A stretch of 35,735 bases of DNA, taken from assembly GCA_031255755.1 (NCBI GenBank), contig JAIRRX010000015.1, positions 1-35,735 of the forward strand, written 5' to 3'. This DNA comes from Prevotellaceae bacterium (GTDB lineage: Bacteria; Bacteroidota; Bacteroidia; Bacteroidales; UBA932). The notes under the pieces were generated by a model. It ran no database searches. It was not told the DNA's origin and saw only the letters and a program-made list of their open reading frames with translations. Shown here piece by piece: positions 34,807-35,696 of this stretch. The translations under genes and the position numbers were made by a program. Positions within the stretch are counted from its first letter, which is position 1, and every line of letters starts with the position of its first letter.

Positions 34807-35427
34807 ATGAAACAGGAAAATAATTACAGTGAAGTCGATGCTGCTATTTTTGTTCACAGTTACATCTCTCCGCAAATGCAGCAAAAATATAATATTGAGC
34901 AAACAGAATATTTGCTTGATATGGTGTATGAATATTATGATACGATTGATGAAATTGAAGAGAATATCGGTGTTAATATTATGAAAATGACTTCCTTCAT
35001 TAATCAAAATATCGACATAAGCATTTGCAGCCCGATTAGACACAGAGAAACAGGAATGCTTTTGGACGCAGATAATGCATACATGGAAAGCATAGGAATA
35101 CATGAAGAAAATGATTTGACTGATGAAAATATGAGCATTGAAGAGGTCAGTAACGGCGTTTATGCATTACTGCCGCAAAAAATGAAAGACAGATATGAAA
35201 TCGATGATATTTTTACTGTCATTTGTGTAGAGTACGCTTATCTTATGGAAAGTGAATTTGAAGGTGAGATGTACGAATATATTCAGCAACACGCCGCCGA
35301 TAATGGCGTAAAAATATCAATTATCGACATACAAAACATTTTAAATGCCGAATTATATTTTTTAGATGGTTATGATCTTGAAGATGAAGACGAATATTTT
35401 AGTAACGACTTTAGCTTCCGCGAATAA
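34807..35427 (+). CDS. Acidic hypothetical protein downstream of DUF3109
   Basis: 206 residues, strongly acidic (Asp and Glu runs such as EYYDTIDEIEENIG and GYDLEDEDEYF at the C-terminus) and rich in Tyr and Ile. No signal peptide, membrane helix or catalytic motif is visible, so it is likely a soluble cytoplasmic protein. Two halves with similar helical flavour (KYNIEQTEYLLDMVYEYYD; DRYEIDDIFTVICVEYAYL) may be a repeated fold. The ATG abuts the DUF3109 stop codon, implying coupled translation. I do not recognise the family. Confidence 0.75.
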   Translation: MKQENNYSEVDAAIFVHSYISPQMQQKYNIEQTEYLLDMVYEYYDTIDEIEENIGVNIMKMTSFINQNIDISICSPIRHRETGMLLDADNAYMESIGIHEENDLTDENMSIEEVSNGVYALLPQKMKDRYEIDDIFTVICVEYAYLMESEFEGEMYEYIQQHAADNGVKISIIDIQNILNAELYFLDGYDLEDEDEYFSNDFSFRE

Positions 35428-35473: not shown

Positions 35474-35696
35474 CGTCATTGCGAGGCGGAACAAAACAAC
35501 AGCCCGTCATTGCGAGGGCAAAGCCCGAAGCAACCCAAAGGCAGCACGTCATTGCGAACCGCGAAGCGGTGAAGCAACCCAAAGGCAGAACGTCATTGCG
35601 AACCGCGAAGCGGTGAAGCAACCGAAGCGCAGCGGAGTTCGGCGTTAGCCAATCCAGAAAACCGTCATTGCGAGGCGAAACGCCGAAGCAATGACG
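35474..35696. repeat. Cluster of five CGTCATTGCG palindromic repeat units
   Basis: Units begin cgtcattgcg at 35474, 35505, 35547, 35591 and 35663. Most continue with an inner hairpin and end in gaagcaa. Units three and four are a 44-bp near-perfect tandem. Unit five (35663-35696) is a 34-bp palindrome, cgtcattgc to gcaatgacg. The first unit is degenerate. The block is GC-richer than the genome around it and holds no gene; the minus-strand ORF over it is an artefact. Similar intergenic repeats are common in several bacterial groups, but I cannot place this family from memory. Confidence 0.8.

Follow-up and report, generated by a model that had tools for sequence, protein, structure and literature searches.

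The DNA stretch analysed here (the window, 35,735 nucleotides from a Prevotellaceae genome) ends in a cluster of CGTC-tagged REPs, a kind of repeat that is already known and that is organized in a Bacteroidales genus as REPIN-like doublets and tandem arrays. Taken as a whole, the cluster probably derives from REPIN-like inverted doublets copied in trans by an enzyme other than a Y1 transposase, of which the window retains a decayed half. Across the copies collected, a unit comprises the tag CGTC, an outer stem ATTGC/GCAAT, a constant GA/GAA internal loop and a variable self-complementary hairpin, usually followed by the tail CCAG. Two unlike units flank a short spacer common to the copies, one inverted relative to the other, with the tags on the outside and the tails next to the spacer. 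Further units are added on the outside in head-to-tail tandem, and orthologous sites in sister species differ in whether a unit is present. Such a doublet would not be autonomous: an enzyme acting in trans would copy it, recognizing the tag, the outer stem and the internal loop in folded single-stranded DNA, and the inner stem could then drift provided that folding is retained. In the lineages examined, this enzyme would not be a Y1 (RAYT) transposase. The window array would correspond to a decayed, tandemly expanded left half, the right half having been lost or lying past the contig end.

Anatomy of the window array

Five short head-to-tail repeats, each starting with CGTCATTGCGA, lie within the final 262 bases of the window (Table 1). 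Palindromic repeats with differing inner hairpins in units two to five had been listed in an earlier sequence-only reading, and all of them were recovered at their positions. The four folding units have in common the tag CGTC, an outer stem (A)TTGC/GCAA(T) and the GA/GAA internal loop, and their inner stems differ, each being self-complementary. The outer arms had also been called nearly constant; this holds for the common tag and outer stem, but complementarity of the arms is incomplete, as the GA (5') and GAA (3') between the outer and inner stems form an unpaired internal loop in every unit, and units 2 to 4, with the outer stem TTGC/GCAA and the tail GCAAC, end in C and not in T. Unit 5 is a 34-nt palindrome except for its GA/GAA loop, and is the only unit in the sampled DNA to be tagged at both ends. 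Since units 3 and 4 are a tandem duplication (98% identical), the window offers three independent inner stems only. All window units lie in one orientation, and the array is not an intact doublet.

Table 1. Coordinates of the repeat units, the extension module and the preceding gene in the window.
Feature	Position	Strand	Description
Upstream gene, 206 aa	34807..35427	+	No NCBIfam match; stop codon 46 bp before array start
Unit 1, degenerate	35474..35504	+	CGTCATTGCGAGGCGGAAC without 3' arm; beginning of a unit of the GGCG-GAA-CGCC type; no stable fold
Unit 2	35505..35533	+	Tag CGTC, TTGC/GCAA, GA/GAA loop, inner stem GGGC-aaa-GCCC
Unit 3	35547..35577	+	Inner stem ACCGC-gaa-GCGGT
Unit 4	35591..35621	+	Inner stem ACCGC-gaa-GCGGT; tandem duplicate of unit 3, 44-bp period, 98%
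34-nt module GAAGCGCAGCGGAGTTCGGCGTTAGCCAATCCAG	35624..35657	+	After unit 4; 3' end is the standard REP tail CAATCCAG; recurrent REP extension in own genome
Unit 5	35663..35696	+	Inner stem GGCG-aaa-CGCC; tail CCAG changed to GACG, giving a CGTC tag at both ends

Sequences matching CGTCATTGCG with at most one mismatch occur 8 times in the window; the expectation is 2.2, and the highest count among 100 shuffles is 6. The hairpins predicted for units 2 to 5 as single-stranded DNA reach -5.8, -7.2, -7.2 and -12.9 kcal/mol, respectively (z -2.1 to -5.1). Among 100 units listed from the own genome, 7 are of the unit 2 type and 11 are exact copies of unit 3, and the 34-nt module is found in 19 copies with at most 4 mismatches in a 517 kb sample of that genome, mostly directly 3' of a REP unit. 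The presence in the window of SusC/RagA, together with a weak SusD match, points to a Bacteroidota genome. A structured RNA family was considered and rejected, as the Rfam search of the window gave no match at the gathering score (HOTAIR_3 appeared once at chance level, E 0.15, far under the cut-off).

Copy number and doublet organization

The own genome is available as 161 contigs (1.83 Mb, 83% complete) and contains 273 exact occurrences of CGTCATTGCGAR, versus 0 for the reversed control; a stricter pattern retrieves 126 complete units. Counts of exact units range from 0 to 158 per genome across the genus, with 94 in the own genome (G000), 158 in G007, 102 in G008 and 66 in G009. A scan of the phylum (396 genomes) found exact units in 25 genomes and ten or more of them in only four, among them a complete single-contig relative, G062, with 180 units. 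Identical 31-nt units are present in named MAGs assigned to Dysgonamonadaceae and Prevotellaceae and, outside these, in Pseudomonas sp. MYb185, Halopseudomonas xiamenensis and one more gammaproteobacterium. From their isolate names, the unit-carrying Bacteroidales MAGs are presumably of termite gut origin. In Pseudomonas sp. MYb185 (L074:7560-7961), the ACCGC-gaa-GCGGT unit is identical to that of the window and alternates regularly with a second, inverted type. Close relatives of the units are carried on plasmids of Methylosinus, Methylocystis, Novosphingobium, Legionella, Halomonas and cyanobacteria. The 36-nt consensus of congener units matches a Novosphingobium aromaticivorans plasmid with 100% coverage and 89.5% identity, with an inverted partner at 84 bp, and alphaproteobacterial plasmids, that of N. 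aromaticivorans included, follow the same heterodimer plan (a long GA-type unit plus a short type, 81-84 bp, tail CCAG). A literature search by repeat sequence returned unrelated sequence matches only.

Array architecture was sampled in the same 517 kb of the own genome, where 213 units (at most one mismatch in the 11-nt core) fall into 85 arrays. Neighbouring units are arranged plus-minus in 48 cases versus minus-plus in 7, besides 73 tandem neighbours, and a typical array consists of runs of plus units, a spacer and runs of minus units, with the tags outward. The tail follows this layout, TCCA being present in 60 of the 96 inner, spacer-adjacent units versus 6 of the 68 outer tandem units; TCCAG is the commonest tail of the sample (69 cases). 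The units have an outer stem of 4-5 bp, the GA/GAA internal loop, an inner stem of 2-5 bp and a terminal loop of 3-4 nt. Many contigs of the own genome (L049, L041, L050 and others, as well as that of the window) have first or last stretches of about 400 bases that are or adjoin REP arrays. The assembly is probably interrupted by the repeats, which would leave intact arrays under-represented.

In the congeners G003 and G006, doublets mostly measure 78-90 bp, 86 bp being the commonest length, and their spacers are homologous within each doublet type (e.g., TCCATAAAGAGTTTTATCTGTAATTTT..GGA and TCCGGTTGCCATGTTCTTTTATAGA), which indicates that the doublet is the copied unit, as in REPINs. This conserved-spacer plan is clear in G003 and G006 and looser in the own genome; there, one and the same spacer type is flanked by arms in several combinations, which suggests that arms are exchanged. 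The subfamilies go back to a small number of founders, each represented by many identical copies. Inverted neighbours of one and the same type are missing from the own genome (0 of 135 versus 4.3 expected, P 0.009) and from five congeners (0 of 43 versus 9.6 expected, P 0.0002), the pairs not being independent in either set. Counter-selection of long palindromes was rejected as the cause of this avoidance, since doublets are copied whole and the P values are thus overstated; homotypic pairs are present in other Bacteroidales MAGs (L080, L090), and the avoidance is no rule of the class. Between two REP pairs of the own genome (contig C22, L042:9204-9290) lies a second palindromic repeat, GCCCTTTCAGGGC ... 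CACAGGGCGTTGCCCTGTG ... AAGGGCTTCGCCCTT, and about 200 bp around it recur at 84-98% identity in many contigs of that genome.

Inner-stem covariation and its possible causes

Covariation was tested on distinct sequences and not on copies. Within the own genome, 55 of 80 pairs form in the inner stretches of 13 nt, versus 39.5 when their 3' halves are redealt, and 1 of 20,000 shuffles reaches the observed value; pairing of the 11-nt stretches is also above that of redealt 3' halves (456 of 20,000 shuffles reach it), and the 8-nt and 12-nt classes are uninformative in this test. For a set of 45 distinct 13-nt sequences drawn from genus and phylum, the covariation score is 0.201 versus 0.085 when shuffled (0 of 500 shuffles) and at most 0.095 in a control with slid partners, and changes on both sides fill 36 cells versus 9.6. 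The covarying inner pairs are the first (G-C/A-T), the fourth (G-C/A-T/C-G) and the fifth (C-G/T-A/G-C). Compensatory change of the inner stem, for which the sequence-only reading had proposed a statistical test over collected copies, is real and above chance. That reading had further taken it to suggest selection on the folded form. The excess stands, but as proof of folding selection it is too strong a reading, because a major subfamily is non-complementary at inner pairs two and three and because template switching is possible. Standard pairing is missing at these two pairs in 32 of the 45 distinct sequences, and the large subfamily (18 of 41 distinct 13-nt stretches) shows there a tandem G-A mismatch, 5'-GA-3' opposite 3'-AG-5'. 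The same motif can be drawn in the outer internal loop, and sequences bearing it recur in other families of the phylum.

Template switching during replication, which would improve imperfect palindromes by altering both arms together, could generate covariation by mutation, without selection on the fold, since it can create and maintain hairpins with compensatory changes in a single event (PMC8794818). The tail of unit 5, changed from CCAG to GACG, lengthens the palindrome up to the tag as such a process might, and subfamilies made of few founders with many identical copies are in keeping with it. However, the GA/GAA loop, an obvious target of correction, is almost never corrected: GAA is kept in 106 of 123, 40 of 45 and 31 of 32 units having the outer 3' arm, without conversion of the loop to its complement, and the tag, the ATTGC stem and this non-complementary loop are the most constant parts of the unit. 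The tandem G-A mismatch likewise persists, in other families of the phylum too. A mutational origin of the covariation is regarded as rather improbable. TnpA-REP of E. coli depends for its activity on a mismatch conserved in the REP stem (PMC8266576); this parallels the GA/GAA loop in its working and is not taken as evidence of kinship. In repeats such as these, compensatory hairpin changes are thus not in themselves proof of selection.

The fold could also be kept by selection on gene expression, the hairpins terminating or protecting transcripts at the 3' ends of mRNAs, and the genomic sites of the arrays bear on this reading. With simple ORF calls, 17 of 46 arrays lie in convergent gaps versus 17.5-21% expected (P 0.001-0.01), the window array begins 46 bp past a stop codon, and annotated plasmid copies lie 13-20 bp past gene 3' ends; a similar argument is made by Di Nocera et al. 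(2013; PMC3733652). A preference for gene 3' ends, the object of another check proposed by the sequence-only reading, is thus borne out by the convergent-gap enrichment, but it is modest: 12 of the 46 arrays lie between divergent genes, an avoidance that is not significant, and the 31 arrays at edges split into 16 facing a gene 3' end and 15 facing a 5' end. Half-changes of the G-T and A-C kinds are similarly few (5 versus 4) and show no trace of strand-specific selection on RNA, and no Rfam match was found in the window. Against a role at this particular 3' end, the gene preceding the window array (34807-35427) has orthologues in 10 of 10 congeners, and in none of them is a unit present at its 3' end. 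A function in RNA would also leave the tag-outward inverted plan and the common spacers without a function, and this explanation is considered unlikely.

Multi-unit arrays are intergenic with one exception; called ORFs contain eight one-mismatch hits or arrays, most of which are isolated hits and probably chance matches. G003 and G006 (91.3% identity across 3.6 kb) differ at several sites in whether a unit is present, with flanks too divergent for exact insertion boundaries. Neither a transposition event nor an intermediate was observed. Near the 3' end of one gene, the two genomes carry different REP doublets (L188:17526-17606 and L221:9569-9654), which suggests independent insertion or replacement at a favoured spot.

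Mobilization and relation to known REPs

For doublets copied in trans, the first candidate mobilizer is a RAYT/TnpA-REP-type transposase, as anticipated by the sequence-only reading, and Y1_Tnp (PF01797) was searched for in the own genome, in congeners and in REP-rich relatives. None was found in G000, G007, G008 and G009, with 66-158 exact units each, nor in the complete genome of G062; from the stated completeness, the chance that the first four merely miss a single-copy gene is about 0.0005. Some congeners do have Y1_Tnp genes, among them G004 and G010, with 0-1 units. At the 12 Y1_Tnp loci examined from relatives, no CGTC unit was nearby in 10 cases, a degenerate unit in one and an intact pair in one (L110). 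RAYT was hence rejected as the mobilizer, there being no correlation with copy number and no gene in the richest genomes. It is very improbable that a Y1 HUH transposase moves these units as it does GTAG REPs, even though their anatomy (a tetranucleotide tag, an imperfect hairpin and a conserved mismatch) resembles that of E. coli REPs (PMC8266576), the tag being CGTC and not GTAG.

Two further enzyme types were considered. IS91-type Y2 transposases (PF04986) are absent from all 11 genomes of the genus. IS110/Piv is the system used by Neisseria phages targeting dRS3; it is not required here, PF01548 being absent from G000, G001 and G007. In G062, two IS110-type elements (L170:2490 and L174:2490) are each followed, at an identical distance, by a REP unit tagged GTTC and not CGTC, as if the element inserted into the CGTC REP tag. 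It is possible, and put forward tentatively, that CGTC doublets form their own kind of mobile element, with unlike hairpin arms as left and right ends, moved across several phyla by a single-strand DNA enzyme that is neither Y1 (IS200/RAYT), Y2 (IS91) nor IS110-type and for which the CGTC tag, ATTGC stem and GA/GAA loop would be the recognition features.

High copy number, compensatory change and arrays of inverted pairs support the REP/BIME-type assignment made by the sequence-only reading. More closely, Di Nocera, De Gregorio and Rocco (2013; PMC3733652) describe a super-family of REPs with an unpaired CGTC (or TGTC/CCTC) at one end, including dRS3 of Neisseria and RPE-4/RPE-6 of Rickettsia; CGTC REPs are already reported there in Bacteroidetes, and Novosphingobium aromaticivorans, whose plasmid copy is akin in sequence to the units studied here, is named as a carrier. 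Window-type units, too, have an unpaired CGTC at one end, AT as the first stem bases (ATTGC/GCAAT) and a tail fitting CCA, the window itself departing from this with GCAAC in units 2-4 and GACG in unit 5. Further common features are subfamilies with alternative complementary stems, inverted dimers with the tags outside (named HH), high copy number, an intergenic location, mostly in gaps between convergent or co-directional genes, and no dedicated unit-flanked transposase; unlike partners are common in several of the published families. The absence of Y1 from REP-rich genomes agrees with Di Nocera et al., who detected no dedicated transposase for CGTC REPs. In contrast, the constant GA/GAA loop appears to differ from the published description, which gives plain stems of 8-9 bp and loops of 4-5 nt, and the many inner-stem types per genome, the long head-to-tail runs and the 34-nt extension module likewise set the present repeats apart from what is described there.

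REPINs are inverted REP doublets with compensatory hairpin changes (Bertels and Rainey, 2011; PMC3116915). The doublets studied here resemble them in their inverted arrangement, set-length spacer, copying as a unit and compensatory changes, but differ in that no RAYT was found, the REPs are tagged CGTC and are not GTAG-type, and the arms are of unlike type. With E. coli BIMEs made of y and z REPs they have in common mosaic arrays of unlike REP types and a conserved stem mismatch, but not the tag (CGTC instead of GTAG), the sequence or a TnpA-REP, none having been found here. The present data newly establish the doublet as the copied unit in a Bacteroidales genus and the clear absence of Y1 from REP-rich genomes; the internal-loop anatomy, combined with many types of inner stem per genome, is probably new as well.

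The 2013 description of CGTC REPs left the spreading agent as an open question. With exact units ranging so widely in number between its members, doublets with common spacers, and REP-rich genomes without Y1, one complete relative included, this genus offers a test bed for it. The question of the missing mobilizer can now be tested by comparison of gene content, and CGTC REPs are set apart from the RAYT paradigm.
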